64,000 nucleotides of DNA from Acidobacteriota bacterium (GTDB lineage Bacteria > Acidobacteriota > Terriglobia > Acidiferrales > UBA7541): the NCBI GenBank assembly GCA_013289585.1, contig JABCZR010000001.1:434001-498000 (forward strand). Direction: 5' to 3'. A program made the translations under genes and the position numbers. This document shows, in pieces, positions 44,193 to 62,218 of the stretch; the stretch's first letter is position 1, and every line of letters starts with the position of its first letter. The notes beneath the pieces were generated by a model that made no database searches, had not been told where the DNA came from, and saw nothing but the letters and a program-made list of their open reading frames with translations.

Positions 44193-44287
44193 AAGAGGCG
44201 GACGCCTGCTTGGCGAGAGTGCCTCCGGCAGACAGCTTTCGGCGCGCGGACCACCCCCTCGCGGCCGCCTAGTGCAAAAACACAGCG

Positions 44288-44941: not shown

Positions 44942-45114
44942 AATTTTTTGCTTGGCCTCGATTGTGCCCGGGGCGATTCTAGCATGCCGATGTCCTGTAT
45001 TCTCCCGGTGGTTTCCTTGACTGTGCTGCGGCCTGCGTGCCACGATACCGCGTCGTTTGCTTCCGACTCCCGGCAAAATCCGAGTTTCGACTTCTCCTGA
45101 AGAGGACGTGCCTG

Positions 45115-47199: not shown

Positions 47200-47283
47200 A
47201 ACCTTTCCGGCTGCACTTCGAAGCCATGCGAAAAATAAGCTACGGCTGAACACATCTTTCCGAAATTCTTGGGAGAATATTCC

Positions 47284-49356
47284 ATGCGCCTGCGACTTTA
47301 TCTGAACCTTCCCCGGACCGGCTTGTGCATCGCTTGCACCTTGGCGCTGCTCGCCATGGCTCCTTCCGGCGCAGCACAAGGATTTTCCAGCGCCGACATT
47401 TATCAGTTGCGTTCCGTCGGCGGCGTGCAGCTATCGCCCGACGGCCGCCGCATCGCCTACACCGTCGTTATGCGCGACCGCCCCGGCCGCCCCTACGGCC
47501 AACTTTGGATCATGGATCTTGCCACCCAGAAATCCGCGCGCATCGGCGGCGACAAAGACGGTGGCGGTGCTCCTCTTTTTTCCCCCGACGGCAAATGGTT
47601 CGCCTTTGCCGGAAGGCAAGGCGAGAACTCCGGGCTCTTCATCGCGCACGCGGATGGCTCCAACGTCACCTTTCTCACTTCCTGGAGCGGCACCAACAGC
47701 CCGCTTCCCGGCACGGGCAAAGACGTGGCCTGGTCGCCCGACGGCAAGCAACTCGCGTATATTTCCGCGACCCCCGGCTCAGCGGCTGCCGGCGCGAATA
47801 GCGATCCCATGGTCATCACGCGCTATCTTTACAAGCCGGACGCCGGCGAAGGCATGACCCGCTTCAACGACAATCAGCGCCTGCACATTTTCACCGTCGA
47901 CGTGGCCACGAAAAAAGTGCAGCAACTCACCAAGGGCGACTTCGATGAGCATTCCATCGATTGGTCTCCTGACGGCAAGGAGATCCTCTTCGCTTCGAAT
48001 CGCGAGCCGAATCAGGATGAGTTTTTCAATTACGACATTTTCGCCCTGCAAGTCGCTGACAATAGCATTCGCCGCCTCACCGCCACCGAATACACCGAAT
48101 ACGAGCCGCTCTGGTCCCCCGACGGCAAACACATCGTCTATCGCGGCACGCGCCGCGGCGTCACCGATCGTGAAACCACCATGGAAGACACTCACGTCTG
48201 GGTCATGAACGCTGACGGCAGCGACCGCCGTGAAATCGGCGCCGTCCTCGACAATCGGCAGGGCACGCCGCAGTGGGCCCCGGATGGCCGCGCCGTTTAC
48301 TTCACCGTCCAGGAGCGCGGTAGCGTCCGTCTCGTGCGTCTCCCGATTGCGGGCGGCAAGCCGGAATATGTGGTGAAAGATACCGGGAGCGTTGCCGGTT
48401 GGTCCGTCGGCAAGGATGGCACGCTCGCCTACAGCTTCACTTCACCGCGCGACGCGGCCGAACTTTTTCTAAAGACCGGTGACGGCGCGGCCCGCAAGCT
48501 CACCGATTTGAATGCTCAGCTTTTCGCCGGAAAACAATTCGCCGAAGTCGAATCCTTCACCTTCACCAGTAACGACAACAAATTTGAAGTCGAAGCCTTC
48601 CTCACCAAGCCGCTCGGCATGACTGCCGCCTCGAAGCATCCGCTCATCGTGAACATTCACGGCGGCCCGCACGGCCAGAACGGCCCCGCATTCAATATCA
48701 AAAATCAGGTCTACGCCGCGCATGGCTACGCCGTCTTGAACGTCAACTATCGCGGCTCTACCGGTTACGGCCAGAAGTTCGCCGACGCTGTCTTTGGCGA
48801 TCAGGATGGCAACGAAGCCCAGGACGTTTTGTACGGCGTCAGCGCGGCGGTCCGGCGCAACCTGTGGATCGATCGCGAGCGCATGGGCATCGAGGGCGTC
48901 AGCTACGGCGGCCAATTGACCGAGTGGCTCATCACCCAGACCAACGAATTCAAAGCCGCCATTCCCACCGCCGGCATCGTCAATCTCATCAGCTACAACT
49001 ACATGACCTACTACAATCAGTATGAAGAAATGGAATTCGGCCAGTTCCTCCACCAGGGCAATTTGATGGATGTCGCCTGGGAGCGCTCCGCCCTGAAGCA
49101 CGTGGCCGGCGCGCACACGCCGACTCTGATTTTGCACGGCGAAAACGACAACGACGTGCCCATCGCCGAAGCCGAGCAATTCTTCATCGCTCTCAAGGAC
49201 GTCGGAACCGAAACCGTTTTCGTCCGCTACCCCCGCGAAGGCCACGGCCTCAGCGAACCCAAGCATGTCGTCGATTCCATAGACCGCTCTATCGCCTGGT
49301 ACGAAACGCATTTCCCCAAGCCCGCCGCCGAGAGCATCACCAACGTCCAACCCTGA
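47284..49356 (+). CDS. S9 family serine peptidase (second copy), exported
   Basis: A 690-aa paralogue of the preceding gene. ATG at 47284, with GGGAGAAT just upstream, begins a signal peptide ending about residue 30. The propeller repeats include VQLSPDGRRIAYTVVM and LFSPDGKWFAFAGRQ. The catalytic Ser is in EGVSYGGQLTEWL, Asp in LHGENDNDVPI, His in YPREGHGLSEP. It follows the first copy by about 85 bp in the same direction, so the two form a likely operon of exported peptidases. Confidence 0.92.
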   Translation: MRLRLYLNLPRTGLCIACTLALLAMAPSGAAQGFSSADIYQLRSVGGVQLSPDGRRIAYTVVMRDRPGRPYGQLWIMDLATQKSARIGGDKDGGGAPLFSPDGKWFAFAGRQGENSGLFIAHADGSNVTFLTSWSGTNSPLPGTGKDVAWSPDGKQLAYISATPGSAAAGANSDPMVITRYLYKPDAGEGMTRFNDNQRLHIFTVDVATKKVQQLTKGDFDEHSIDWSPDGKEILFASNREPNQDEFFNYDIFALQVADNSIRRLTATEYTEYEPLWSPDGKHIVYRGTRRGVTDRETTMEDTHVWVMNADGSDRREIGAVLDNRQGTPQWAPDGRAVYFTVQERGSVRLVRLPIAGGKPEYVVKDTGSVAGWSVGKDGTLAYSFTSPRDAAELFLKTGDGAARKLTDLNAQLFAGKQFAEVESFTFTSNDNKFEVEAFLTKPLGMTAASKHPLIVNIHGGPHGQNGPAFNIKNQVYAAHGYAVLNVNYRGSTGYGQKFADAVFGDQDGNEAQDVLYGVSAAVRRNLWIDRERMGIEGVSYGGQLTEWLITQTNEFKAAIPTAGIVNLISYNYMTYYNQYEEMEFGQFLHQGNLMDVAWERSALKHVAGAHTPTLILHGENDNDVPIAEAEQFFIALKDVGTETVFVRYPREGHGLSEPKHVVDSIDRSIAWYETHFPKPAAESITNVQP

Positions 49357-49525
49357 CAGCCCGGAAAGGCAAAAAGAAACACAGCCCCAATTTCTGGTAG
49401 TGCGTCAGTTTCCGATAATCCGACTAACCAAGAGTTGACCGTTGCTGCACTCAAGGCTCTTTCAATCTCACCACAATCCTTGACGAGTTTTAGACTGGTT
49501 GGATCAAGAATTGAGTGAGCGAACT

Positions 49526-50359
49526 ATGCCCTCGACTGAACTTCTGGCGACGGAGAGTCGAAACGTCAACGGTGTCCACAAATTCGATTCGGGGGCCATA
49601 TGGCTAGGTCTTATCGCAGGGAGTATTGGGCTACTACTATTTATAGGCTTGGGAATCGCGGCGGCCAAACAAGGATCGAAATCGGCAGTTCTCTGCTTGC
49701 CCATCTCACTTCTGCTTGTTGCGCTTCTAACGCACATCGGGAGACTTTCGGGGCGCTCCCTCCACGTCAGTGACGAGGGGGTTTCGGTTCGGGACATGAA
49801 GGGAAATCAGATTGGCAGCCTTCAGTGGATGGAATTAGGTAAAGTCACTGAGCGGCGGAAAATGGCCCAGCTTGCGTTGTGGGACAAGAGCGGCGCACGC
49901 CGGGTATTGATCGATCAGCAGTATCAGAACTTTGTCGCGATTCGTTACAGGATTCTAGCTGAATACGCGAAAGCATTCACGCTCAATCCCCTGCCGATAG
50001 TATTTCAAAGATCGAATCCTGTGATGTATGAAAGCTTCATTTTCGCTATGTGCAGCGCGCTCTTCGGCTGGGTTGCGTGGATTGCTTTCCAGCAAGGACA
50101 ACGACTGGCAAGTACATTTTTCCTTTGTTTTGTAGTCGCCAGCTTGGTGTCTCTCCTTAACCTCTTTAAGACACAGGAGGTTTACAAAAAGAGTGTGAGC
50201 GGCGTGGAAATCGGAGACGTGGCGAATCCCCAAAGCGGGACGAAATTCTCGTCGGTTATTTTGCAGGTTATTGGTGGGAAGCAGCTAAAAATAACTTCGA
50301 AATACGGCAGCATCCCGGAAATCTACTTGACGCTCCGAGCATGGTTGGCTCGACCCTAA
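49526..50359 (+). CDS. Membrane protein of unknown function (PH-like soluble region)
   Basis: A 277-aa protein; the ATG at 49526 is chosen, with a TTG at 49499 as an alternative. Two hydrophobic segments lie at about 22-45 and 55-72, then a soluble region with short strands (LHVSDEGVSVRDMKGNQIGS, LQWMELGKVTE), and two further membrane helices near 170-220. The soluble part resembles a bacterial PH-like domain, which is inference. No family is recognised with confidence. A terminator follows. Confidence 0.65.
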   Translation: MPSTELLATESRNVNGVHKFDSGAIWLGLIAGSIGLLLFIGLGIAAAKQGSKSAVLCLPISLLLVALLTHIGRLSGRSLHVSDEGVSVRDMKGNQIGSLQWMELGKVTERRKMAQLALWDKSGARRVLIDQQYQNFVAIRYRILAEYAKAFTLNPLPIVFQRSNPVMYESFIFAMCSALFGWVAWIAFQQGQRLASTFFLCFVVASLVSLLNLFKTQEVYKKSVSGVEIGDVANPQSGTKFSSVILQVIGGKQLKITSKYGSIPEIYLTLRAWLARP

Positions 50360-50383
50360 GCGGAGGCGGAGACTTGCCGGGTG

Positions 50384-50413
50384 CCGCAGCCTTCGGTTTT
50401 AAGGCTGCGGATT
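50384..50413 (+). terminator. Intrinsic terminator
   Basis: A perfect 10-bp stem (CCGCAGCCTT and inverted copy, 7-nt loop) with ATTTT after it, 24 bp downstream of the membrane-protein gene. Confidence 0.75.
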
Positions 50414-50448
50414 TTAACTCTTCTTTCTCTTTTCCTCGTAATTTTCAT

Positions 50449-50479
50449 TTGACCCGCCATATTACCCTCATGGTACAAT
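50449..50479 (+). promoter_or_regulatory. Candidate sigma70 promoter
   Basis: TTGACC at 50449-50454 and TACAAT at 50474-50479 with 19 bp between. It lies between the preceding terminator and the two leader hairpins, so it would drive the frameshifted gene. Confidence 0.5.
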
Positions 50480-50496
50480 ATCTCTGTTGACTACTG

Positions 50497-50529
50497 CGCC
50501 CCGGCCCATCCGGGGCGTTTCTGTTTTTC
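50497..50529 (+). terminator. First leader hairpin (terminator-like)
   Basis: A perfect 8-bp stem (CGCCCCGG and inverted copy, 5-nt loop) followed by TTTCTGTTTTT. It lies inside the 5' leader rather than after a gene, so it could attenuate transcription. Confidence 0.6.
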
Positions 50530-50543
50530 AGGCCATCTTTGTA

Positions 50544-50569
50544 GCGCCGGCGTCCTGCCGGCGCTTTTT
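50544..50569 (+). terminator. Second leader hairpin (terminator-like)
   Basis: A perfect 8-bp stem (GCGCCGGC and inverted copy, 5-nt loop) followed by five T. With the first hairpin it forms a tandem pair just before the ribosome site. Confidence 0.65.
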
Positions 50570-50610
50570 CGTCAACAAATCCAAAAAACTAAACTCTAAA
50601 GGAGATGTTT

Positions 50611-51296
50611 ATGTCCTCTCTCAATAAGAAGGACCGCGTGTCCCTATGTTCATCACTTTCTCCGATGGCCGCCGTTGCCGCACCCCGCGCACCGGCAACC
50701 ATCCCCACTTCTGCTTCGACCACGCCCAAAAAGAAGCCCGCGCCCGCACTGCAGAAACCCTCGGCAAGGACCTGGCCTACTTCTTCTCCGGCGACTACCT
50801 CTCCGCCAACGATCTCAGCGCCGCTCTCGCCCGCCTCATCCCCGCCGTGGTCTCCGGCAATATAAAGCCCAAGACCGCCCGCACCGTCGCCTACCTGGCC
50901 CAAACGCTCCTCCAGTCCATCCGCCTCGCCCAGCACGAATACATCAACGCCTTCGGCACCAACGTCTGGCGCAACGCCATCTGCAACTCCGTCTCCGGCA
51001 ACCACGACTACCTCTTCCCACCCCAGCCTGCCCCTCAACCTCAACCCGCCCCACCGCCAATCCCCACGCCACAACAAAACCCCACGCCCATCTCGACGCA
51101 AACCCCTCCCACCGTTGTCATCCCGAACCCAGTCGCGCCTTTTGCGAGTGGAGGTGAGGGATCTGCTGCTTCTTCCCCCACCGTCACCCCCCCCCCCCCG
51201 CCCCCCGTCAAAAAATGGGACCCCTACGGAATTGACTTCCCACCAGACTGCCGCCTTCTAATAGACGGCAAACCTTGGAACGGGAAACCCCTTTAG
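50611..51296 (+). pseudogene. Frameshifted acidobacterial 'MSSLNKKDRVSLC' family gene
   Basis: AAAGGAG precedes ATG at 50611, which reads MSSLNKKDRVSLC. From about 50649 the protein sense continues one frame over: FITFSDGRRCRTPRTGN, then HPHFCFDHAQKEAR, ETLGKDLAYFFSGDYLSA and AYLAQTLLQSIRLAQHEYIN. I recall intact relatives that join SLC directly to an F-TF-DGRRC segment. One missing T in TGTTC near 50649 would restore this exactly. The C-terminal part is Pro/Thr-rich with a 13-C tract. A zinc-binding role for the C-x~10-C/H cluster is plausible. Either a decayed copy, an error in the sequence, or rescue by the in-frame ATG at 50646 (216 aa). Function unknown. Confidence 0.7.
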
Positions 51297-51461
51297 AATG
51301 AGCACTTACAAGCTATCCCGTATCCGCTGATTCTAAAGCGCTTACACAAAAGCTAAGTCTTTTAGATGCAACACTTACAAAAAAAAGGGGGTGCTACCGG
51401 CTTGGGAATCCTGATCTCTGGTAACCGCTCTCCATTCGCCCAGGGAAATCGCCCCTAAAAC

Positions 51462-51488
51462 AAAAAGAGCCCCGAACTTCGGAGCTCT
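51462..51488 (-). terminator. Intrinsic terminator downstream of rplS
   Basis: A stem of ten pairs with one mismatch (AGAGC-CCGAA type and inverted copy), preceded on the plus strand by AAAACAAAAA, gives a U-run on the minus transcript. It lies about 35 bp after the rplS stop. Confidence 0.7.
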
Positions 51489-51522
51489 CTTCAAGATTTG
51501 TTTGGAACAGTAAAACGCGTCT

Positions 51523-51927
51523 CTACGCCTGTGTCTCGCTACCCGCCGTGGCTACCGCTGCCACTTCCTCGCGGTCCGCCCGCTTGATGCGCGCGGCCTT
51601 GCCCTTCAAATCGCGCAGGTAGTACAGCCGAGCCCGGCGAACTTTGCCCTTGCCGACCACTTCGATCGAGCTGATCGTCGGCGAATGCAGCGGGAAAATG
51701 CGCTCGATCCCCACGCCAAAACTCACGCGCCGCACCGTAAACGTCGCGCTCGACGACCGGCCTTTCTTCGAAATCACCACGCCCTCAAAAGCCTGCAGGC
51801 GTTCTTTCACCTTCTCGCCTTCGCCCTCTTGCAGCCGCACGTTGACGCGCACGGTGTCGCCTGCGCGAAATTCAGGAAGGTCTTTGCGCAGTTGCGCTTC
51901 ATGTAATTTACGTATAACCGGATTCAT
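51523..51927 (-). CDS. rplS: 50S ribosomal protein L19
   Basis: A 134-aa ribosomal protein; ATG at 51927 ([20 protein letters not shown]) matches the L19 start, and the frame extends a few codons more. Characteristic stretches are [40 protein letters not shown] and [10 protein letters not shown]-type [20 protein letters not shown]. In most bacteria it follows trmD directly. Here trmD is 2.9 kb upstream, separated by other genes. The C-terminal 25 residues are a longer, Ala/Glu-rich tail than usual. Confidence 0.96.
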
Positions 51928-52140
51928 GTTCCTGTTTCCTTCTAGACCCACTCAGGCGGGGCCAGCTCTTCAAGACAAACAAGAATTATAGCCAAAATTC
52001 AATAATTTACCTAGCCCAATCAAGACGGATAACCTAGGTTTGACTTCGCCTGCTCCTGCGCGTTATGAATTGTCAGCGCCGGCTTCGTTGGGTGAAACTA
52101 TGCGACCGTCCATGCGTTTTGCAGCTTAGGAGCTCGAAAA

Positions 52141-52587
52141 ATGAGCGTCGACAAACAGGTTGCAGCAAACGTCAAGCAAGCCGTTCCATTCTTCCACGTG
52201 TCCAACATGGAAGAATCGCTCCGCTACTACGTGGATGGTTTGGACTTTGGGATCCGATGGAAATGGATCGACGAAGGCAAACTCCGCTGGTGCTGGCTGG
52301 AAAATGGCGGAGCAGCCTTGATGCTCCAGGAGTTCCGCAAAGAAGGCCATGATTCCTGGAGGCCTAGTTGCAAAGTGGGAGAAGGCGTATCCATCTGTTT
52401 CATGTGCGAAGATGCGCTGGCGATCTACCACGACGCGACGGCACGTGGAATTAAGGTTACAAAAAATCCGTTTGTCGGAAACAGGCTGTGGGTCGTTTCT
52501 TTTTCGGATCCCGATGGCTATCGCATCGACTTTGAAAGCCCTACGGATGTCCCCGAGGAGACAGAGTACTCACCACAAAACAAATAA
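52141..52587 (+). CDS. VOC-fold protein (glyoxalase/bleomycin resistance-like)
   Basis: A 148-aa protein with the paired VOC repeat: AVPFFHVSNMEESLRYYVDG and VVSFSDPDGYRIDFESPTD. Conserved metal positions (His in PFFHV, Glu near DFES) are present. The start ATG follows TTAGGAGCTCG. It is the only gene of this stretch on the plus strand, sitting convergent to the LLM oxidoreductase gene. Substrate unknown. Confidence 0.85.
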   Translation: MSVDKQVAANVKQAVPFFHVSNMEESLRYYVDGLDFGIRWKWIDEGKLRWCWLENGGAALMLQEFRKEGHDSWRPSCKVGEGVSICFMCEDALAIYHDATARGIKVTKNPFVGNRLWVVSFSDPDGYRIDFESPTDVPEETEYSPQNK

Positions 52588-52606
52588 TCAGCAAATTGGC
52601 GTTTGT

Positions 52607-53650
52607 CTAAGTCCGTGCCGGCACGGTGGTAGTCCGCCGAATGACGCTTTTCGCGAAACGCTCCATTTCCTCAAGTTGCGGGCTGAATTGCAGCAGCACA
52701 AGGTCAACGCCGACTGCCTCGAATTGAGCGATCCTTTCGGCGACTTGCTCAGGCGTTCCAACCAGGCCGGAGCGTAGCCCGCGATTGGAAACGGAATAGT
52801 CTTCGAGCGAAACGCGCTGCTCGAGTTGCGTTCCGGCCAGCCACTGCTGGTAGTTGGCGTAGCCCGCCGCGGACTGGTGCACGTCCGTGATGCGCCGCAC
52901 TTCATCCTGCGCTTCGCGTTCCGTTTCTCGAACCACGGCGTAACCCGCCACGCCGAATTTCATCGGAGGCAATTTGTGTTTTGCGCGGCGCTCGCTCAAA
53001 TCCGCGATTTTCTTGCTCACGGTTTCCGGCGGGTCGCCGTGCATGAGGTACGCGTCGCACTTTTCGGCGATCAGCTCCTTTGCCGCGGGAGATTCGCCGC
53101 CCGCATAAATCGTTGGCCGCGGCTTCGAAATGGGTTTCGGCTCCAGGACGTTGTCGTCCACGCGGTAATACTTTCCTGAATACGAGAAATGATCCTGCTT
53201 CCACACGCCATCCACGACGTCAAGCCACTCGGTGGTCCGCGCATAGCGGTCGTCGTGTTGCTCGAACGATACGCCGTATTTTTTCGCTTCATCCGACCAC
53301 CACGAAGAAACCACGTTCAGCGTCAGCCGCCCATTGCTGATGTGATCGATGTTCGCCGCCTGCTTCGCCAGCAGCGCCGGCAAATGAAACGTCGGCCGCA
53401 CCGCCACCATCAATTCAATGCGCTCCGTCACCGCTGCCAACGCCGCTGCCGTGGACCACGCATCCAGCGAAGGCGCCACCACTCCTTTAATGTCGTTGAG
53501 ATTGAGTTCGGCGATCAGCGTCACATCAAAACCAATCTGTTCGCTGCGCTGCGCCAGCTTTTTTACGTACGCCCAGCTCGTCTCCATGTTTTCGTTTTCG
53601 ACGTTGCGCAGCCACCCGCCGAAAACCGGCATCCAGTAGCCGAATCTCAT
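52607..53650 (-). CDS. LLM-class flavin-dependent oxidoreductase
   Basis: A 347-aa luciferase-like TIM-barrel oxidoreductase, related to alkanesulfonate/dimethyl-sulfide monooxygenases (SsuD/NtaA group). Sequence elements are GYWMPVFGGWLRN at the start, AALAAVTERIELMVAVRPTF, NGRLTLNVVSSWWSDEAKKY, YAGGESPAAKELIAEKCDAY and LVGTPEQVAERIAQFEAVGV. It would use FMNH2 or F420H2. Its ATG overlaps the stop of the ATP-grasp gene (ATGA), so the two are translationally coupled. Substrate unknown. Confidence 0.92.
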   Translation of the reverse strand: MRFGYWMPVFGGWLRNVENENMETSWAYVKKLAQRSEQIGFDVTLIAELNLNDIKGVVAPSLDAWSTAAALAAVTERIELMVAVRPTFHLPALLAKQAANIDHISNGRLTLNVVSSWWSDEAKKYGVSFEQHDDRYARTTEWLDVVDGVWKQDHFSYSGKYYRVDDNVLEPKPISKPRPTIYAGGESPAAKELIAEKCDAYLMHGDPPETVSKKIADLSERRAKHKLPPMKFGVAGYAVVRETEREAQDEVRRITDVHQSAAGYANYQQWLAGTQLEQRVSLEDYSVSNRGLRSGLVGTPEQVAERIAQFEAVGVDLVLLQFSPQLEEMERFAKSVIRRTTTVPART

Positions 53651-54681
53651 CGCGGGCCTCCGCTCGCCACAACGCGCTCCGCGCGGCTAGCTTCGTGCTT
53701 CCGCGCTTCCGCAATCAGGAAATCCGCAAGACGCGCGTAAGGATTGAATCCCACTACGCGCACCGGATCCGCCACGAAATTCGACAGCGCATTCACGTCG
53801 TAATAAAGCTGCCGCCCCGTGCACTCATCCACTACATATTCGATGCCGCCGACTTCGACGCCCGCGAGTTCCACAATCCGCTCGACGTCTTCAATCACTT
53901 GCCGCGGCGCGTCGTAGCCTTCGACCTTCATGCCGCTCTTCGGCGCGTCCACCGGGCAAGCGATGCGCGTCAATTCTTCCCCCCGTGTGTTCTGGCAAAT
54001 GTCCGCCGGACACAAGTTGTAACTCTCGCCGGTAATGTGAATCTGGATGGCATAGAGGAATTTCCCGCCAAGCACTTCAACGCGCGTGATGATTCCATCC
54101 CGCGCCGTGAATGCTTCCTGCACCAGCGCCGTGGAATCAATGCCAAAGTAGAGCCGGTTCGCCTCCACCGCCGCGCGTAACTCCGCCGGCGAATTAAACC
54201 GCTCAATCCCCGCCCCGCTCCCCCCGATATTCGGCTTGATCACCACCGGAAATCCAATAGACTCCGCCGCGGCCAATGCCTGCGATGGATGATTGATCAC
54301 CCGCGCCTTTGGATAAGGCAAACCGAGCGTCTCCAGATTCGTCAGCTGCAACGCTTTCGAAATCTCGTGGCTAAAACACTTGTACCCGTTCACCACGCGC
54401 ACGCCTTTTCCTTCGAGATGCGCAAGATAGTTCAGCGTATAAAAAATCCCGTGCCCCAGCCCGCGCTGCCACGCCGATGGGCTCATGCGATTGAACAGCA
54501 GCGAGTAGTCCAGTTCCGGCGAAGACACATCGTAGTTGTGGTGCCGCGCATCCATCTTCAGCCACGGCACGCCGCGCTCATCCATTTGCTGGAACAGCGG
54601 CCGGAACCAGTCCGGATGTTCGTAGTAAATCGCAATCGGCTTTTCCAGCCCGTTATGGTTTTCCTGGATCGGATTGTTCAT
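53647..54681 (-). CDS. ATP-grasp ligase (RimK / glutathione synthetase-like)
   Basis: A 344-aa ATP-grasp protein. The N-terminal domain (IAIYYEHPDWFRPLFQQMDE ... DYSLLFNRMSPSAWQRG) precedes the grasp core: GFPVVIKPNIGGSGAGIERF with the nucleotide-binding Lys and Gly loop, then DVNALSNFVADPVRVVGFNP with the Mg-binding DVNA motif. Typically these enzymes form a peptide-like bond by acyl-phosphate chemistry. Coupled to the LLM oxidoreductase by a 4-nt overlap. No peptide precursor or transporter is adjacent. A biosynthetic role is inferred. Confidence 0.87.
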   Translation of the reverse strand: MNNPIQENHNGLEKPIAIYYEHPDWFRPLFQQMDERGVPWLKMDARHHNYDVSSPELDYSLLFNRMSPSAWQRGLGHGIFYTLNYLAHLEGKGVRVVNGYKCFSHEISKALQLTNLETLGLPYPKARVINHPSQALAAAESIGFPVVIKPNIGGSGAGIERFNSPAELRAAVEANRLYFGIDSTALVQEAFTARDGIITRVEVLGGKFLYAIQIHITGESYNLCPADICQNTRGEELTRIACPVDAPKSGMKVEGYDAPRQVIEDVERIVELAGVEVGGIEYVVDECTGRQLYYDVNALSNFVADPVRVVGFNPYARLADFLIAEARKHEASRAERVVASGGPR

Positions 54682-54793
54682 GAATCCTCAATCTTCAATG
54701 TTCCTGTTGCAGAGCACCTTCAAAGCGAGCGCTCACTCGCGGAGATGCAGCGGCTCTCCCGTCAGCTGGATAAGAACTCCCAGATCTTCCATT

Positions 54794-55564
54794 TTATTCC
54801 CTTCCGAGCAAATCGGGGCGATTCCGGCGCGTTTTCTCGATCGCCGCCGCACGCCGCCACTTCGCCACTTCCGCGTGGTTTCCGCCAATCAGCACGTCCG
54901 GAACACTCCAGCCGCGGTACTCCGCCGGCCGGGTGTAATGCGGAAAATCAAGCAGCATGGAATTTCTAAACCCGGACTCGTCACTCGGCGCTGCCGTTGG
55001 AGGGAACGGCCGAGCTTCGCGGAAGGATTCATTCTGCGAAGACGCTTCGTTCCCCAGCGCGCCCGGGATGAGCCGCGTCACGGCATCGATCACCAGCATC
55101 GCCGGCAGCTCGCCGCCACTAAGCACGAAATTTCCGATGGAAATCTCTTCGGTGGCCAGGTGCTCCGCCACGCGCTCGTCCACACCTTCATAGCGCCCAG
55201 AAATAAAAATCATGCGCTCGAGCAGAGCGTAGCGCCGCGCGGTCTCCTGATCAAATAATTTTCCCGCAGCGGACATCAGTACGATTGCCGTTTTTGGTTC
55301 GTGCGCCGTCGGCCCTGTCGCGTCTCCTACGTTGCGCCCAAGAAGCGACTCCACCGCTTCGAACAGCGGCTCCGGTTTCAGCACCATGCCTTCGCCGCCG
55401 CCGAACGGCCGGTCATCCACCGTGCGATGCCGATCTTTGGTGAACACGCGCAGGTCCTGCACGCTCACCTCGACGAGCCCCGTTTCTCTCGCGCGCCGAA
55501 GTATCCCGTGATCGAGCGGCCCGGCAAAGAACTCCGGAAAAATCGTAATGAGGTCAAAGCGCAT
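54794..55564 (-). CDS. trmD: tRNA (guanine37-N1)-methyltransferase
   Basis: A 256-aa SPOUT enzyme methylating G37 in tRNA. The ATG at 55564 (MRFDLITIFPEFF) is the family start. DDRPFGGGEGMVLKPEP, LMSAAGKLFDQ, FISGRYEGVDERV, EEISIGNFVLSGGELPAMLVID and PHYTRPAEYRG are all conserved, including the knot glycine-rich region and the catalytic Asp region. It belongs to the rpsP-khpA-rimM-trmD-rplS set but stands alone here, with foreign genes on both sides. Confidence 0.96.
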   Translation of the reverse strand: MRFDLITIFPEFFAGPLDHGILRRARETGLVEVSVQDLRVFTKDRHRTVDDRPFGGGEGMVLKPEPLFEAVESLLGRNVGDATGPTAHEPKTAIVLMSAAGKLFDQETARRYALLERMIFISGRYEGVDERVAEHLATEEISIGNFVLSGGELPAMLVIDAVTRLIPGALGNEASSQNESFREARPFPPTAAPSDESGFRNSMLLDFPHYTRPAEYRGWSVPDVLIGGNHAEVAKWRRAAAIEKTRRNRPDLLGRE

Positions 55565-55725
55565 CTCCCGCAAGTGTAGCAAACGGAAGCCGGGCTTCGA
55601 ACTTGGCCGGGAGGAAGGCAGTTGGTGGGAAGTGAATTATTGTCCTTGGAGTGGTGCTACGTTTTGCCGGTCACACGAGTGCGAAGACTCGAAGCCGAGT
55701 AAACCATCGGCAAGATTGGGGCTGC
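55565..55725. other. Intergenic region between trmD and the Cys/His mini-protein
   Basis: About 160 bp holding the upstream region of trmD. No gene, hairpin or promoter that I can support. Confidence 0.4.
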
Positions 55726-55911
55726 TCAGGCTCGAGGGCTACGATGGATTCTTTTCGTTTCAACGGCCTCTGCCGCCGAAAGTTTCCGGTCCACGTGTGG
55801 TTCGGAGCGCAAGCCACCAGAGTGAAGCAAACAGCGCTTTCCCGAATCGACCCCACATGTTGGACAGGGTACGGAGAGGAATAGTGCTGGCGTCAAGTCT
55901 TTCATCCGCAT
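55726..55911 (-). CDS. Small Cys/His-rich protein (acidobacterial type)
   Basis: About 61 aa from the ATG at 55911 (MRMKDLTPALFLSVPCPTCG). A CPTC pair and a later C plus two His (RCLLHSGGLRSEPHVDRK) suggest a zinc-finger-like metal site. I recall similar 'CPTCG...GLR-EPH-DRK' mini-proteins from Acidobacteria. A start at 55929 (TTG) is also possible. Same strand as trmD and the radical SAM gene. Function unknown; the coding call rests on motif match. Confidence 0.55.
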   Translation of the reverse strand: MRMKDLTPALFLSVPCPTCGVDSGKRCLLHSGGLRSEPHVDRKLSAAEAVETKRIHRSPRA

Positions 55912-56061
55912 CGGGACAGAGTGCGACAAGAAACGCCAGATATCTGTTCAAATTGGAACACTTTTCGCGACGACCTTAAATAGTTCGGATTAAGTGAGAG
56001 AAAGTAGAGAATACTTTGCTGCGGCAAACGCCCTTCCAACAAATTAACGGACTTTTCAGAA

Positions 56062-57117
56062 TCAATTCCTTCTTGCTTCAGGTGCGCTGCATTGTTCCTG
56101 ATCCGATCCCAAAATTGGAAACGGAACTTTAGGTTGATTTTTCTCGCGCCGTTTCGCTCGCCTCTGCCCAATCTTTACGGAAGCGGTGAAAATTGCCCCG
56201 ACGGGGACGACGCCACCCCATTTGTGCGCCGCAATTGCTGCCAGCCCCATCGATGCGATGCATCCGCAGGATTGGCAATCGGGGCGCCCGCCAAATTGAC
56301 AGGGAGTAATCAGCGTCTGCAGATCCGCCGACAGCGTCTTGGTTGTGAGTGCAAAAACACATTCTTCGGGTGAATGCGGCGGCGAAGAAAATTGCCGGAT
56401 CAGCCCCTCCTGCATGTCCAGCTTGGGATATTTCTTACGCAATTCGAGCATGTCGGCAACCGCCTGCGCGCGCTCACCAGGTGTGAGCATCTCCGGCAAG
56501 TTATCTCCAACCTGCGGCGTAAACAGGCTGAACCACACTTTTTTGATTTCCGGGCGCGGCGTCCAGAATTTCAGGAATTCTTCCAGGTATCCCGGGCGCT
56601 TCATCATCTGGCCCGTGACCGTGCAATGGATGGTCACGCACTGACCAACAATATTTTTCAAGATGCGTTCGTAAGTGGCTGGCGCGCGCCGCACGTCGTG
56701 TTCCGGTTGCAACCCGTCTATGGACACCACGACATACAGATTCTTCAGGTTGGCCCATGTCGGACTCATCGGGCGGAACGCGCTGGTAACAATTTGCACG
56801 TGGATTCCGCGGCTCAATAGCGGTGGAATCATCTGCTCCAGCTCGCGGTAGCGGACCAGCGGGTCACCGCCGACAATCGACAGGTGCAACGGCTTCAGGC
56901 GGTCCACAACTTCCAGGACGCCATCCACCAGGGCTTGGCCCTTGCGATCGTTCAAGTCACGCAAGGTCTTTCCGCCGCCGAGGTGCGCAGCGTCGTAGGC
57001 GTAGCAGCCCGGACATTGCAAAGGGCATTCTCGGGTAATTTCGATCGAAAGCGACGGGTGTTCGCCCTTAAGAATCTTTCCCCATGCTTGAATAATCTGA
57101 GCAGCGTGCACAGCCAA
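56062..57117 (-). CDS. Radical SAM protein with C-terminal Cys-rich region
   Basis: A 351-aa enzyme. The [4Fe-4S]-SAM motif is Cys31-Cys35-Cys38 (CPLQCPGC), followed by SIVGGDPL and IVTSAFRPMSP typical of the core barrel. The C-terminal region has Cys in PEECVFAL, TPCQFGG, PDCQSCGCIAS and may bind an auxiliary cluster, as in SPASM-like enzymes. The frame begins at a TTG (57117) with a GTG two codons on. No peptide precursor is adjacent. It sits between trmD and the GH44 gene. Substrate unknown. Confidence 0.88.
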   Translation of the reverse strand: MAVHAAQIIQAWGKILKGEHPSLSIEITRECPLQCPGCYAYDAAHLGGGKTLRDLNDRKGQALVDGVLEVVDRLKPLHLSIVGGDPLVRYRELEQMIPPLLSRGIHVQIVTSAFRPMSPTWANLKNLYVVVSIDGLQPEHDVRRAPATYERILKNIVGQCVTIHCTVTGQMMKRPGYLEEFLKFWTPRPEIKKVWFSLFTPQVGDNLPEMLTPGERAQAVADMLELRKKYPKLDMQEGLIRQFSSPPHSPEECVFALTTKTLSADLQTLITPCQFGGRPDCQSCGCIASMGLAAIAAHKWGGVVPVGAIFTASVKIGQRRAKRREKNQPKVPFPILGSDQEQCSAPEARRN

Positions 57118-57253
57118 TAGTCCTTACCAAGAGGGTGTCATTCAAAGTATGCGCCCCCTGCCGTTCGATGTCACGCAGGGCTCCCTGCTCCCCGCCGCAT
57201 TTTCCTAGTCTCTATCCCCGTCGTTCGAACGGAGTGGAGTAAGTCCACATAAC

Positions 57254-57268
57254 TGACACAAAGTGTCA
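57254..57268. promoter_or_regulatory. Candidate operator palindrome, divergent radical SAM / GH44
   Basis: TGACAC and its inverted copy with a 3-nt AAA spacer lie in the 258-bp gap between the two divergent genes. This may be the binding site for a regulator of either gene; no regulator is adjacent. Inverted repeats this short arise by chance, so the call is tentative. Confidence 0.35.
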
Positions 57269-57375
57269 TGGCCCAATTCTGTTCCTTCGAACAGCTTGTT
57301 CCCCCCCGGCCACATTCGTACCCTTGCAGTTGAGAATAAGGGCTCACATCTCCTCCGCCGCGCGGGAGTTACCTG

Positions 57376-59886
57376 ATGGCGTTGCGAACTCTCTCAAACA
57401 GACACCATCGCTTGTGGCTCGTGAGTTTGCTTGCGGTCAATCTGGCAGGCTGCGTCGGCTATGGTGGCGGGAGCAACACCAAACCCGGGGGCGGGTCCGC
57501 CCCCGCGGCACCCACGGGTCTTTCGGCAACGGCCGCGAATGCGCAGGTGAATCTTAGCTGGAGCGCGAGCTCCGGCGCCTCCGCTTACTACGTCAAACGC
57601 TCCACGACGAGTGGCGGCCCCTACACACAAATCGCCGCGCCCATCGCAACAAATTATTCCGACAATAACCTGTCCAATGGCACAAAGTATTTCTACGTCG
57701 TTTCGGCCTACAACTCCTACGGACAGAGCTCCAATTCCGCGGAAGTCGGCGCCACACCTGCCGCGCCCGCAACGCCGCCCGCTGCTCCCACAGGACTACA
57801 AGCTGCTGGCGGCAACGCCCAAGTCAGCCTGACGTGGACCGCCAGCACGGGCGCAACGAGCTACCATGTGAAACGCTCCACCACCAGCGGCAGCGGCTAC
57901 GCGCAAATCGCTGCTCCGACTGCGGCAAATTTCACCGACACAACGGTGACTAACGGCACCACGTACTTCTACGTCGTCTCCGCGCTGAATGCCATCGGCG
58001 AAAGCGCCAACTCCGCGCAAGCGAATGCGACGCCCGTTGCACCCGCAACGCCGCCCGCTGCTCCCACAGGATTACAAGCAACCGGCGGGAATGCTCAAGT
58101 CAGCCTGACGTGGACCGCCAGCACGGGCGCAACGAGCTACCATGTGAAACGCTCCACCACCAGCGGCAGCGGCTACGCTCAAATCTCTGCTCCCACCGCT
58201 GCGAACTACACCGATACGATTGTGACCAACGGCACTACGTACTTCTACGTTGTGTCCGCGCTGAATGCCGTCGGCGAAAGCGCCAACTCCGCGCAAGCCA
58301 CAGCCACACCCGCCAACGTCGCAGCCGATGTGACCATCACCATCGACCCAACAAAATCCAAGCCCATTTCCCCGTACATTTACGGGATGAATTTCTATAA
58401 TGGAGTGACCGGCGCGCCACCGCATTTGACCTTCGATCGCGACGGCGGCAACCGCTGGACCGCCTACAATTGGGAGACCAACGCCTCCAACGCCGGCAGC
58501 GACTATATCTACGACAATGACAACTACCTGAGCAGTAGCACCGTTCCCGCCGAGGCCGTGCGCAGCTTTATCGCCGCGGATCAGAATGCGGGCCTCGCAA
58601 GTCTCATTACCGTGCAGCTCCAGGGCCTGGTTTCCGCTGATGAGAATGGTCCCGTCAGCGTCGCCAATCCTCCCGACCTGACGCGCTTCAAGACCGTCGT
58701 CGACAAAAAGAGCACCGTCTCCAGCACTCCTTTCACGGTCAATCCACCCACGACGGATGCCAACGTCTACATGGACGAATTCGTATGGGCCCTCGACCAG
58801 AAATTCACCGGCCTGCGGATCTTCGGCACGAACCCAACGCACCCGACTTTTTTGAGCCTGGACAATGAACCGGAACTCTGGAATTCCACGCATCTGGAAG
58901 TGCAGGGACACAATCCCGTTACCTCCGACAACTACATCACCAAGACCATCAATCTTTCGAAAGCCTTGAAAGATCAGTTCCCCAATGTTCTGATCTTCGG
59001 CCCCGTTCACTACGGATTCCAGGGTATCTACAATTGGCAAGGCGAGCTGAGCGCCACACCATCCGGCGCCAACTGGTTCCCGGATAAATACCTCCAGGCC
59101 CTGAAGACCGCTTCCACTGCCTATGGAAAACCTCTAGTGGACGTCTACGACTTCCATTGGTACGCGGAGGATTACGATTCGAACGGCACGCGCATCCTGA
59201 ATCTCACCAGCACGACTCTCACCGACGCGCAGATCCAGCTCATCGTTCAAAGTCCGCGCAACCTCTGGGATCCCACGTTCACCGACAGTGGAAACAGCAA
59301 CCCGTGGATTTACCAGGAACTGGGCGGCACACCCATCAACATCCTCGGCCGCCTCCAGGCCAAGATCAACACCGAAAACCCCGGCATGAAAATTTCCGTT
59401 ACGGAGTACGAGAGCGGTGGCTGGAACCACATCGCCGGAACCATCGCGCAGGCCGACAACCTTGGAATTTTTGGAGCCCAGGGCGTTTTCGCCGCCAGCT
59501 TCTGGCCGCCGAACGGCACCTACTCCTACGCGTTGGCGGGATTCCGAGCCTTCCGCGGTTTCGATGGCGCCAGCGCCAGCTTCGGCGACACCTCGCTCCA
59601 GGCGAATTCCAGCAATGTTGCGAATGTAGTTGTTTACGCGAGCCTGGACAGCGCCACGCCGGGCCGCGTCGTCCTCGTGGCCATCAATCGTTCGAACGCC
59701 GCTAAAGTTACCGCCATCAATGGCCAGGCGCTCTCGGGCACCGCGCATCTCTATCAGATGACGGCAAGCACCACCGCGGGACAATCCATCGTCCAGCCCG
59801 TCTCGATTGGAACGATGGCGGCAAGCGGCTCGGCGCTAACGATCACACTTCCGGCCTATAGCGTGACGACCATCGATGTCAGGTGA
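57376..59886 (+). CDS. GH44-type glycoside hydrolase lipoprotein with three FN3 domains
   Basis: An 836-aa lipoprotein. The signal peptide ends in a lipobox (LAGC) near residue 26. Three fibronectin type III domains follow (about 47-130, 135-225, 227-315), the last two nearly identical even in DNA (276-bp period). The catalytic domain (about 318-836) opens DVTITIDPTKSKPISPYIYG. It has SLDNEPELW, the likely Glu acid/base, and ISVTEYESGGWNHIAG, the likely Glu nucleophile, as in family 44 (xyloglucanase/cellulase). It presumably attacks beta-glucans at the cell surface. Inserted between rimM and trmD in opposite orientation. Confidence 0.9.
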   Translation: MALRTLSNRHHRLWLVSLLAVNLAGCVGYGGGSNTKPGGGSAPAAPTGLSATAANAQVNLSWSASSGASAYYVKRSTTSGGPYTQIAAPIATNYSDNNLSNGTKYFYVVSAYNSYGQSSNSAEVGATPAAPATPPAAPTGLQAAGGNAQVSLTWTASTGATSYHVKRSTTSGSGYAQIAAPTAANFTDTTVTNGTTYFYVVSALNAIGESANSAQANATPVAPATPPAAPTGLQATGGNAQVSLTWTASTGATSYHVKRSTTSGSGYAQISAPTAANYTDTIVTNGTTYFYVVSALNAVGESANSAQATATPANVAADVTITIDPTKSKPISPYIYGMNFYNGVTGAPPHLTFDRDGGNRWTAYNWETNASNAGSDYIYDNDNYLSSSTVPAEAVRSFIAADQNAGLASLITVQLQGLVSADENGPVSVANPPDLTRFKTVVDKKSTVSSTPFTVNPPTTDANVYMDEFVWALDQKFTGLRIFGTNPTHPTFLSLDNEPELWNSTHLEVQGHNPVTSDNYITKTINLSKALKDQFPNVLIFGPVHYGFQGIYNWQGELSATPSGANWFPDKYLQALKTASTAYGKPLVDVYDFHWYAEDYDSNGTRILNLTSTTLTDAQIQLIVQSPRNLWDPTFTDSGNSNPWIYQELGGTPINILGRLQAKINTENPGMKISVTEYESGGWNHIAGTIAQADNLGIFGAQGVFAASFWPPNGTYSYALAGFRAFRGFDGASASFGDTSLQANSSNVANVVVYASLDSATPGRVVLVAINRSNAAKVTAINGQALSGTAHLYQMTASTTAGQSIVQPVSIGTMAASGSALTITLPAYSVTTIDVR
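57766..58317 (+). repeat. Two near-identical 276-bp tandem repeats (FN3 units)
   Basis: DNA beginning CCCGCAACGCCGCCCGCTGC recurs at 57766 and 58042, a period of 276 nt (92 codons), with most positions identical. They encode the second and third FN3 domains and indicate recent duplication or gene conversion. Confidence 0.8.
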
Positions 59887-59920
59887 GTTTAGGGCGGAAG
59901 ATATTTCTCGTTTGATCCGT

Positions 59921-60535
59921 TCAGGATTCCGGCTGATTCAGGTCGCGAAGACCTTCCGGCAAAACCACGTCAATCCGCCGCGCTGCGGTATCGATCCTGG
60001 TACAGATATCCACTGCCAACGGAATCAGGAGATCACCTTGAGATGTCTCGACTTCCAGCAGTGGTGTCCCGGGGAAATCTTCGCCGGGAATCTGCACATC
60101 GCGCACCGTCCCGAGCAGTGACGGAACTTCGCCAAGAGAACACGGCGAGGACGCAACAACCGGCGTTGCAGCAGGATTCTCGAATACCGAACATCCAATC
60201 AAATCCGACACAAAATACTGCCCAGCGGGAAGCGTAACGCGCTGTTCGAATGGCAAGAGCACTTCCATCCCGCGATACTTTTCCGCTTCGGAAATCGAAT
60301 TAACGCCTTCGAAATGAAAAACCGCCTGTCCTCGATGGTTCTGGCTCAGCCAGCAGTTTTTCACCGCGACCTGGCGCGGGTCCATCTTGCCTCCGGCAGG
60401 CCCGACAAAAACTTCCTTTAGTTTTGTGAGTCGTTCCGGAAAGTCTGTCAGCAGTTCCGCGGCAACTTCGCCTTTATTTCCGCGCGCCCGCAGAATGCGC
60501 GCCACCAGCACCCACCGTGGAGTTTCAAGGCTCAA
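59921..60535 (-). CDS. rimM: Ribosome maturation factor RimM
   Basis: A 204-aa 30S assembly factor. The N-terminal RimM domain has VLVARILRARGNKGEVAAELL and HFEGVNSISEAEKYRGMEVLL. The C-terminal PRC barrel has YFVSDLIGCSVFEN, LGTVRDVQIPG and LLIPLAVDICTRIDTAARRI. The C-terminal VVLPEGL is the typical end. The start is a TTG at 60535, without a clear ribosome site. khpA and rpsP lie upstream on the same strand. trmD, normally next, is 4.4 kb away. Confidence 0.93.
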   Translation of the reverse strand: MSLETPRWVLVARILRARGNKGEVAAELLTDFPERLTKLKEVFVGPAGGKMDPRQVAVKNCWLSQNHRGQAVFHFEGVNSISEAEKYRGMEVLLPFEQRVTLPAGQYFVSDLIGCSVFENPAATPVVASSPCSLGEVPSLLGTVRDVQIPGEDFPGTPLLEVETSQGDLLIPLAVDICTRIDTAARRIDVVLPEGLRDLNQPES

Positions 60536-60584
60536 GGTTTAGCAGAACCGAATACTTGGATTGGGGAGTATGACCGCAAGGAAG

Positions 60585-60818
60585 TCAATCTTCGAGGATT
60601 TCCAACGTGTAACGCTTCCGGTGTTTCATGCCCGCCGCACCCAGCAGCGTTCGAATGGCCTTGGCCGTACGACCCTGCCGGCCGATCACTTTCCCCAAGT
60701 CCTCCGGATGCACCTTTAGCTCCAGCACAGTGACCTGTGCTCCTTCGCCGGACTTCACCTGTACTTCCTCGGGATGATCCACGAGCGCCCGGGCAATGGT
60801 TTCAACTAGCTCTTTCAT
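60585..60818 (-). CDS. khpA: KH-domain RNA-binding protein KhpA
   Basis: A 77-aa protein with one KH domain. The GxxG-like loop is [17 protein letters not shown]. KhpA binds RNA, often with KhpB, and affects cell size and translation. It lies between rpsP and rimM, its usual place. Confidence 0.94.
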
Positions 60819-60875
60819 TGGGCACCTGGGAATCGCGTCCCAGCCCAGCCGGGACGCGCAACTTTCAGGAAGGCT

Positions 60876-61121
60876 TTATGGCTTCGCGATCTTTTGCAGC
60901 TTCAGAAAGCTCCGCACGGTATCGCTCGGTTGTGCGCCCTGCCCGAGCCAATACTGGATGCGTGCAGCGTCCAGCTTGATCTCCGCCGGCTTCTTCAGCG
61001 GATCATAGGTGCCCACCGCTTCCTTCACGCGGCCGTCGCGCGGCCTAGTCCGCTCAATCACCACCACGCGGTAAAAGGGCTTTTTCTTCTTGCCAATTCT
61101 CGCCAAACGAATCGTTAACAC
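60876..61121 (-). CDS. rpsP: 30S ribosomal protein S16
   Basis: An 81-aa protein; the GTG at 61121 is preceded by AGGAGG about 10 nt upstream and matches the family start VLTIRLARIGKKKKPFYRVV. The frame extends 15 codons further upstream. RDGRVKEAVGTYDPLKKPAE and ARIQYWLGQGAQPSDTV are conserved. It leads the rpsP-khpA-rimM set. Confidence 0.95.
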   Translation of the reverse strand: MLTIRLARIGKKKKPFYRVVVIERTRPRDGRVKEAVGTYDPLKKPAEIKLDAARIQYWLGQGAQPSDTVRSFLKLQKIAKP

Positions 61122-61230
61122 TAAGTCAGTCCTCCTGAACCCATCTATTCTAGCCTGCCTCACCACTCCACGCCAAACAAACTATCAGCCCGGGCTTTGC
61201 GGCCAGGCAGTTATGAACCGGGAAGACCGC

Positions 61231-61263
61231 AAAAAGGAAGCTCCCGGCCGTGGGCCGGGAGCT
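61231..61263 (-). terminator. Intrinsic terminator, minus strand
   Basis: A perfect 11-bp stem (AGCTCCCGGCC and inverted copy, 3-nt loop) with an A-rich left flank, after the secreted repeat-protein gene and before rpsP on the minus strand. Confidence 0.75.
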
Positions 61264-61348
61264 CTCTCCACGCAATACGCAATTCACAGAGGAACTGCCC
61301 TGTTGCCTATGGTTCCCTTAATTTCGCTCACTTGCAGCTTGTGAGGAA

Positions 61349-62014: not shown

Positions 62015-62218
62015 TGTCTCTCCGATTCTGATCTGTTTCTGAACTGTCAGGGATACTGGACGGTGACGCGGACTCTGGTAGGAGTCGAAGGTTTGTCCAC
62101 TCTGAAGGTAGGGTGGCAGATCATGCGCCGGGAGTCTGCCCTCTATAGCACACATCGAGGCCGGGGCGGCTGGGGCTGTGTGAAATAACGGAAAGCCGAT
62201 CCGCATGGGCGACGCTTG

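Follow-up and report, generated by a model that had tools for sequence, protein, structure and literature searches.

A coupled ATP-grasp ligase and luciferase-like monooxygenase gene pair from Acidobacteriota and other phyla, a candidate module for organosulfur amino-acid salvage

The window analysed is the whole of a 64,000-nucleotide (nt) stretch of an Acidobacteriota bacterium genome (assembly GCA_013289585.1, contig JABCZR010000001.1, positions 434,001 to 498,000), and contains on its minus strand two overlapping genes that encode an ATP-grasp ligase and a luciferase-like monooxygenase (LLM). The two genes almost certainly form one functional unit, and the pair is read here, with a rough probability of 0.55, as an organosulfur amino-acid salvage module for times of cysteine or sulfur shortage, in which the ligase would conjugate the substrate and the LLM would then cleave its carbon-sulfur (C-S) bond. 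This reading is pointed to by the predicted control of the pair by cysteine or S-adenosylmethionine (SAM), by sulfur-related partner genes, by the C-S-cleaving clade to which the LLM belongs and by the fixed presence of the ligase. The support drawn from sequence comprises the identity of both families, the fixed and mostly overlapping or abutting arrangement of the genes, its conservation across phyla, a substitute ATP-grasp protein in Deinococcus, and the predicted cysteine or SAM control in some relatives. The pair is probably an undescribed sulfur-recovery route, and no description of it was found in the literature searched, which was of limited coverage. An earlier reading of the same letters (the original prediction) had proposed a coupled ligase and oxidoreductase module, and is partly supported as a whole. 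Loci and genomes are cited below by their working numbers (L and G).

Conservation of the gene pair

Both open reading frames (ORFs) are present where the original prediction had placed them, and share the ATGA that it described, an overlap likely to couple their translation. A small module of amide-bond formation and oxidation had been proposed, with rare co-occurrence in other genomes set beforehand as a refuting outcome; this outcome did not occur, and the coupling of the genes across genomes supports a small module of amide-bond formation and flavin-dependent oxidation. In a sample of 299 genomes of the class, the LLM (threshold E <= 1e-90) was present in 59, all of which also had an ATP-grasp match at 52-100% identity (a few being fragments at contig ends), and none of these 59 had an LLM without an ATP-grasp protein. 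By coordinates, the two genes were adjacent and on the same strand in 58 of the 59 genomes, and they lay 0.6 Mb apart in G272.

Eighty ATP-grasp loci were collected from Acidobacteriota, Gemmatimonadota, Bacteroidota, Planctomycetota, Verrucomicrobiota, Eisenbacteria and other groups, and an LLM gene was adjacent on the same strand in 69 of them, far above chance. Of the other 11 loci, two (L061 and L110) are cut off where their contig ends, L087 and L110 have an LLM elsewhere in the genome, and L091 has an LLM fragment; no LLM was found at E <= 1e-30 in the genomes of L059, L061, L085, L095, L105, L107, L108 and L109. When the LLM served as the query in other phyla, with E limits between 1e-60 and 1e-80, it retrieved 44 of 150 Gemmatimonadota, 6 of 296 Bacteroidota and 2 of 261 Chloroflexota genomes, together with 1 of 255 Planctomycetota genomes, that one being the centre genome of the sample. 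None of 111 Deinococcota genomes was retrieved at E 1e-70, in a sample that included no known positive although two Deinococcus plasmids carry the LLM. Loci were examined from 43 of these 44 Gemmatimonadota genomes and from 5 of the 6 Bacteroidota genomes, and in all 48 the ATP-grasp gene adjoined the LLM gene on the same strand; some of these genomes are also represented among the 80 ATP-grasp loci. L098 comes from the remaining Bacteroidota genome, and its pair is adjacent too.

The arrangement was kept at identities as low as 47-48% for the LLM and 32-34% for the ATP-grasp protein (L212, L213 and L257), and also in L280 from Chloroflexota. With start codons chosen by the analyst, the intergenic gap was 0 or less in 71 of 113 pairs and at most 14 nt in 104 of them. 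Distances among the ATP-grasp proteins correlated with those among the LLMs (r 0.72; 0.45 without L212), which shows that the two are coupled and not what they do. On plasmids of Deinococcus deserti and D. peraridilitoris the LLM (61 and 58% identity) is preceded by a different ATP-grasp protein of 426 amino acids (aa), barely similar to the window ligase (E 0.001), and a 45% relative of this protein lies 2.8 kb from the LLM of L279, with an opposite-strand gene between them. The occurrence of another ligase family beside the same oxygenase argues that ligation itself is needed.

Predicted cysteine and SAM control

A SAM-I riboswitch (RF00162, gathering score 44.4) was detected with Rfam models upstream of the ATP-grasp gene, on the same strand, in three of 35 selected loci scanned, all from Bacteroidota (L076, 74.2 bits; L211, 71.4 bits; L210, 74.5 bits); a cruder riboswitch pattern missed all three. 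The riboswitches end 408-475 nt ahead of the ATP-grasp start, with a largest intervening ORF of 50 aa in the two checked, and their leaders held short ORFs ending in cysteine runs, which prompted a systematic leader test. Two sulfotransferase-like proteins, recognised by eye, are encoded upstream of the riboswitch and pair in Salinimicrobium nanhaiense (L076, 6790-7686 and 8260-9135).

A leader was defined as a short ORF with at least four Cys per eight residues within 420 nt upstream. The 113 pairs were reduced to 105 by removing those whose upstream stretch was shorter than 150 nt and those whose ATP-grasp protein was the same as that of a pair counted before, and 707 other predicted genes near the pair served as controls. 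The controls came from 103 loci numbered L051 and up and were given longest-ORF starts; 16 of the loci behind the 105 pairs fall within L032-L050, and the pairs were given starts near the protein match. A cysteine leader was found upstream of 28 of the 105 distinct pairs, compared with 14 of the 707 control genes, and 20 dinucleotide-preserving shuffles gave a mean of 0.45 per 105 and a maximum of 2. When all 20 amino acids were compared in this way, enrichment was much the strongest for cysteine, and small excesses were seen for Ile (6/105 against 6/707) and Met (3/105 against 0/707). A terminator (GC-rich hairpin and T run) within 130 nt was present for 39 of 105 pairs and 29 of 707 genes, and leader and terminator occurred together in 21/105 against 3/707, or in 23/105 against 4/707 at three Cys per eight residues. 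When the 105 pairs were given matched longest-ORF starts, 26 had a leader, and 17 (four per eight) or 19 (three per eight) had leader and terminator; restriction to pairs from L051 up gave 26/89 and 19/89, respectively. One of the three control genes with leader and terminator opens a pair operon (L051), and the three control genes with at least five Cys are that of L051 and divergent neighbours of the pair in L056 and L060.

At three Cys per eight residues, leader and terminator were both present in 13 of 49 representatives (<78% identity), these 13 coming from Acidobacteriota, from Gemmatimonadota and from the Bacteroidota sample, and L106 (Eisenbacteria) has a leader and, in its predicted fold, a hairpin with a longer loop and T run. 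Cysteine-responsive attenuators are built in this way, from a short ORF with a cysteine run and a terminator of the intrinsic type behind it, and such control is predicted for part of the family. Among the 14 distinct loci that begin with a flavin mononucleotide (FMN) reductase gene, leader and terminator were present only in L051, and five had at least four Cys per 12 residues. Of 20 tested loci in which the ATP-grasp gene has no LLM beside it, only L059 and the contig-truncated L061 had a poly-Cys leader, and L280, with an adjacent LLM, had no cysteine leader in the same test. The divergent redoxin- and SusC-type neighbours in L056 and L060 carry a Cys-rich short ORF of their own upstream, which suggests that the pair and these neighbours share one cysteine regulon. 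In the genus of the window, leader and terminator lie between trmD and the pair in 2 of 16 loci examined (L043 and L047), and the switch was probably lost in the other loci of the genus.

Enzyme families, proposed reaction and locus setting

The families named in the original prediction were borne out, the LLM matching Bac_luciferase (PF00296, E 8.6e-67) and the ligase being an ATP-grasp protein of RimK/LysX type. The nearest named models were SfnG (TIGR04021, 266 bits, cut-off 383) and SsuD (TIGR03565, 197 bits, cut-off 518) for the LLM, and RimK (TIGR00768, 63 bits, cut-off 143) and LysX (TIGR02144, 55 bits, cut-off 276) for the ligase; since all scores lie under the curated cut-offs, both proteins belong to known superfamilies and reach no curated functional family. 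The structure model of the LLM (predicted local distance difference test, pLDDT, 88) matched 3rao (Z 45.7, 57% identity), 8vw6 (Z 44.6), SfnG 8t0w (Z 41.3, 33% identity) and MsuD 7k14 (Z 37.8). In MsuD, the FMN-phosphate region consists of H123, R126 and Y127, and the sulfonate is bound by W195, R225, R296 and an RGGA loop (available portion of PMC8234197). Residues H132, R135 and Y136 of the LLM are invariant and align with the three FMN-phosphate residues, and the positions of W195, R225 and R296 are occupied by H204, A235 and N289, with NRGL in place of the RGGA loop; R290, also invariant, could stand in for R296 if the loop shifts by one. An identity as an SsuD-type sulfonate oxygenase was rejected on the SsuD score and the missing sulfonate-ligand motif. 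The invariant charged or polar residues of the LLM family's own include R15, N16, E20, E48, N52, D53, H204 and R290, and would fit a charged, amino-acid-like substrate. CmoJ (YtnJ) is related to the LLM only at E about 3e-16.

The ligase model (pLDDT 89) matched the RimK/LysX-like ATP-grasp fold over its whole length, with LysX 3vpd (Z 26.9, root-mean-square deviation 2.5, 274 aligned of 281) and ArgX 3vpb (Z 26.8, root-mean-square deviation 2.4, 276 aligned) as the best solved structures, and the first 11 matches ranged from Z 24.4 to 26.9. The family signature LCPA(D/E)xC aligns at the N-T-A-R-G-G stretch of 3vpd, and its cysteines, Cys224 and Cys229, do not vary across the 48 aligned pair members; the signature also occurs in every one of the 20 tested loci that have no LLM next to the ATP-grasp gene (L107 and L169 being the same stretch) and in L280. 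The signature loop, modelled at lower confidence (block-mean pLDDT 58-82, residues 211-250), may provide a metal site, take part in thiol chemistry or bind substrate. LysW-dependent systems employ a small carrier ending in an EDWGE-like motif, and no ORF ending in E-D/E-W/F-G-E was found in the window or in the DNA of the loci examined. A 29% ATP-grasp relative with LCPADxC is encoded on plasmids of Pediococcus acidilactici (L115, 5980-6918), beside a dicarboxylate symporter and a thioredoxin-domain gene.

In the reaction proposed for the salvage module, the ATP-grasp enzyme would most likely join an amino acid to a sulfur-bearing amino acid or derivative, the nature of the conjugated amino acid being suggested by the glutamate-type carboxylates that LysX/RimK-like enzymes use. 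Conjugation would serve as a handle or protecting step. The LLM would receive reduced FMN (FMNH2) from an SsuE-type or other reductase and insert oxygen next to the sulfur, whereupon the C-S bond would break and the sulfur could return to cysteine, and a peptidase or amidase would take off the conjugated group. We infer that both enzymes act in series on one molecule, with conjugation first and the C-S bond as the point of attack; what the substrate is can likewise only be inferred, and S-alkylcysteine-type, methionine-derived and cysteate-type compounds are candidates. It is rather probable that the pair serves sulfur nutrition, and action of the two enzymes in series with C-S cleavage is judged slightly better than an even chance. 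More tentative, and short of even odds, is the broader proposal of a cross-phylum sulfur-supply pathway in which an LCPA(D/E)xC ligase would tag an organosulfur amino acid by an amide and a dedicated FMNH2 monooxygenase would break its C-S bond, under poly-Cys attenuator or SAM riboswitch control in many lineages, ATP-dependent ligation taking the place of the N-acetylation used in Bacillus.

Several genes found beside the pair in relatives relate to this proposal. An SsuE-like FMN reductase gene lies directly upstream of the pair in 14 distinct Gemmatimonadota loci (tblastn); the protein was scored from L072 only and reached 145.8 bits against a cut-off of 164. Genes similar to MetQ, MetN and MetI come after the pair in L166 and L099, and in L158 they precede it in divergent orientation, the MetQ and MetI of L166 scoring over the Pfam and under the NCBIfam cut-offs; an aminotransferase gene accompanies them in L166 and L099, and another aminotransferase gene lies beside the lone LLM of L162. 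Amino-acid permeases occur near several Bacteroidota pairs, and a large protein read as an M14-type peptidase (no NCBIfam match) is encoded in L060, L067, L068, L095, L098, L100 and L103, of which L095 is an Acidobacteriaceae record without LLM. The remark of the original prediction that no transporter or regulator is adjacent holds for the window and fails for some relatives. The operon of D. deserti (L113) reads CuyA (535 bits, cut-off 450), CuyB (271 bits, cut-off 190), ligase and LLM, CuyA and CuyB representing cysteate lyase and racemase, and in L064 a CuyA-like gene (184 bits) cut by the contig end follows the LLM. A cysteate pathway as the general context was rejected, CuyA and CuyB being clear only in D. 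deserti. Most neighbours of the pair were not conserved in a clustering of 104 loci, in which 8 duplicate loci were dropped.

The features of the window locus are listed in Table 1. The genes trmD and rplS stand before and after the pair in 17 of 20 close loci of the genus (L032-L050 and L066); of the exceptions, L044 and L066 are cut at contig ends and L050 has no trmD there. The pair of this genus is inserted within a rimM-trmD-rplS region (51523-60535 in the window); between rimM and trmD, the window additionally has a radical SAM gene (56062-57117, minus strand) and a gene for an 836-aa protein. The radical SAM gene had been considered a possible part of the module; trmD stands between it and the pair, none of the 80 ATP-grasp loci yielded a relative of it (3-21 kb of DNA each, E <= 1e-5), and it was rejected as a third member. 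A glyoxalase-fold protein is encoded convergently to the LLM gene (52141-52587, plus strand) and adjoins the pair in several relatives of the genus, e.g. L033 and L037.

Table 1 Features of the ATP-grasp and LLM locus in the window
Feature	Position	Strand	Basis
ATP-grasp ligase, 344 aa, LysX/ArgX/RimK-like fold, first gene of the pair	53647..54681	-	ORF list, profile search, structure model
LLM monooxygenase, 347 aa, SfnG/SsuD clade, two-component FMNH2-dependent type, second gene of the pair	52607..53650	-	ORF list, profiles, structure model
ATGA start/stop overlap (LLM ATG 53650-53648, ATP-grasp TGA 53649-53647)	53647..53650	-	sequence
GGAGG, Shine-Dalgarno-like, just ahead of the LLM start	53657..53661	-	read from sequence
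LCPADIC, ATP-grasp residues 223-229, family signature LCPA(D/E)xC	53995..54015	-	alignment
LLM H132-D-D-R135-Y136, aligned with the MsuD FMN-phosphate region	53243..53257	-	alignment
Intergenic stretch between trmD and the pair; poly-Cys leader and terminator kept at the equivalent place in L043 and L047	54682..54793	-	
trmD, upstream neighbour of the pair in the window's genus; context, outside the module	54794..55582	-	
rplS, downstream neighbour in the window's genus, named by eye; context, outside the module	51523..51951	-	

Alternative readings and comparison with known systems

A number of observations weigh against organosulfur salvage. The predicted control is absent from much of the family: 77 of the 105 pairs fell below the leader threshold, 32 of the 35 loci scanned had no SAM riboswitch, and the window pair itself has neither a cysteine leader nor a terminator upstream and no riboswitch within 44000-64000. 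The pairs share descent, so that p-values are a guide only and Fisher values overstate independence. No LLM was present at the threshold in 34 of the 93 class genomes with an ATP-grasp match, these 34 having more distant ATP-grasp proteins (33-52% identity, best E 1e-48 to 3e-93, with G222 and G193 reaching 52%). No FMN reductase of the PF03358 family, to which the search was directed, was found in the genome of the window, and each partner gene is limited to a few loci. Relatives of CuyA occurred in 18 of the 299 class genomes, none over the cut-off, and in only two (G197 and G254) of the 59 genomes with the pair; CuyA does not track the pair, and cysteate is therefore not established as a general substrate. 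Plain alkanesulfonates are also unlikely substrates, since the sulfonate ligands of MsuD are not conserved in the LLM.

The original prediction had suggested a biosynthetic or detoxification role, which is less likely than sulfur salvage given the predicted cysteine attenuators, the SAM riboswitches and the sulfur-related partners in some relatives. On one alternative reading, the pair would make a small specialised metabolite (peptidic, perhaps sulfur-containing) for secretion, as in the hvr (pantaphos) or butirosin pathways, and this is unlikely. The hvr clusters do combine ATP-grasp and flavin monooxygenase genes, as far as the available portion of PMC7858074 describes them, and the earlier remark that no described pathway was known to use exactly this pair stands for precisely these families in the literature searched and not for combinations of ATP-grasp enzymes with luciferase-type oxygenases in general. 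Secretion would also fit a MATE-like family, recognised by eye at varying positions in 4 of 104 loci, and the ATP-grasp relatives without LLM in L173-L175 (39-41%), which stand directly behind ABC-transporter ATPase genes in what by eye is an exporter-like cluster. However, among the genes beside the pair no constant position is taken by an exporter, a carrier protein or a further tailoring gene, the adjoining partners include importers (MetQNI-like proteins and an amino-acid permease), and cysteine attenuation normally switches a gene on at cysteine shortage, which fits supply better than consumption.

A division of labour, in which the LLM is an ordinary SsuD/SfnG-like sulfonate or sulfone monooxygenase and the ATP-grasp enzyme separately makes a sulfur-stress product, such as a low-molecular-weight thiol or a gamma-glutamyl storage peptide, is improbable. 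The nearest named LLM families and the SsuE-like reductase in some operons are consistent with it, but the gene overlap and near-perfect pairing are tighter than two unrelated jobs would predict, and the LLM falls under the SfnG and SsuD cut-offs with its sulfonate ligands not conserved. There is a slimmer chance that the pair repairs or detoxifies sulfur amino acids or peptides that have suffered damage (as S-alkyl or S-succino adducts), and that sulfur is recovered as a side effect; the chemistry would be of the class of YxeK and CmoJ (available portions of PMC9706529 and PMC10863075), and an MsrA-like gene, read by eye from the sequence, lies upstream in L091. Against repair, the predicted control by cysteine or SAM supply points to nutrition rather than damage, and no N-acetyltransferase or N-acetylcysteine (NAC) deacetylase was recognised beside the pair by eye among the operon and recurrent neighbour genes, no family model having been run on all of them. 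Action on a peptide or protein, by a RiPP-like (ribosomally synthesised and post-translationally modified peptide) or RimK-like modification, is very improbable, since the resemblance of the ligase fold to RimK and PsnB is set against the lack of a precursor-like ORF among the recurrent neighbours (ORFs of <50 aa were not listed) and the nature of the upstream short ORFs, which are cysteine leaders, many with terminators.

The salvage reading has its closest parallels in Bacillus. A sequence of acylation, oxygenation and deacylation is known for S-substituted cysteines (available portions of PMC9706529 and PMC10863075), and the Scm/Yxe pathway for S-(2-succino)cysteine and the Cmo pathway for S-alkylcysteine share with the proposed module the blocking of the amino group, C-S cleavage by an FMN-dependent enzyme of the luciferase family, deblocking, and a role in sulfur nutrition (the same sources and the available portion of PMC12757645). 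They differ in that their block is an acetyl group from an N-acetyltransferase, whereas the pair has an ATP-grasp ligase fixed to the oxygenase, and in that the LLM of the pair belongs to the SfnG/3rao clade. With SfnG, MsuD and SsuD, the C-S-cleaving enzymes of its clade, the LLM shares the fold, the FMN-phosphate residues and, in some pair operons, an SsuE-like reductase; it differs from them in its scores below the cut-offs, in not keeping W195, R225 and R296 of MsuD, and in its fixed ATP-grasp partner. The ligase shares its fold with LysX/ArgX and RimK, but it scores under their cut-offs, carries LCPA(D/E)xC at the N-T-A-R-G-G position of 3vpd, and had no LysW-like C-terminus accompanying it in the loci examined.

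In butirosin synthesis, the ATP-grasp enzyme BtrJ adds a gamma-glutamyl group, the luciferase-type BtrO hydroxylates the protected substrate with the flavin reductase BtrV, and the group is later removed. The likeness of BtrO to the pair is one of description and not of sequence comparison, and its substrate differs in being bound to a carrier protein and destined for an antibiotic. Polycysteine leader attenuators that respond to cysteine have reportedly been described in mycobacteria by Canestrari in 2020. They resemble the predicted leaders, in a comparison made by the title of the report only, in placing a short poly-Cys ORF ahead of an operon; they differ in phyla and genes, and the leaders of the pair, predicted from sequence, often have an intrinsic terminator. 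In soil, Acidobacteriota and Gemmatimonadota are abundant groups that have received little study, and to our knowledge their acquisition of organic sulfur is largely an open question. The fixed pair, which in many relatives has a predicted built-in cysteine sensor, is a directly testable candidate: the growth condition is predicted by its regulation, the bond by the oxygenase clade and the conjugate by the ligase. If the salvage reading is correct, it could explain what 3RAO, a structural-genomics protein, and its relatives do, and would add an ATP-dependent protection step to the acylate-oxygenate-deacylate strategy.

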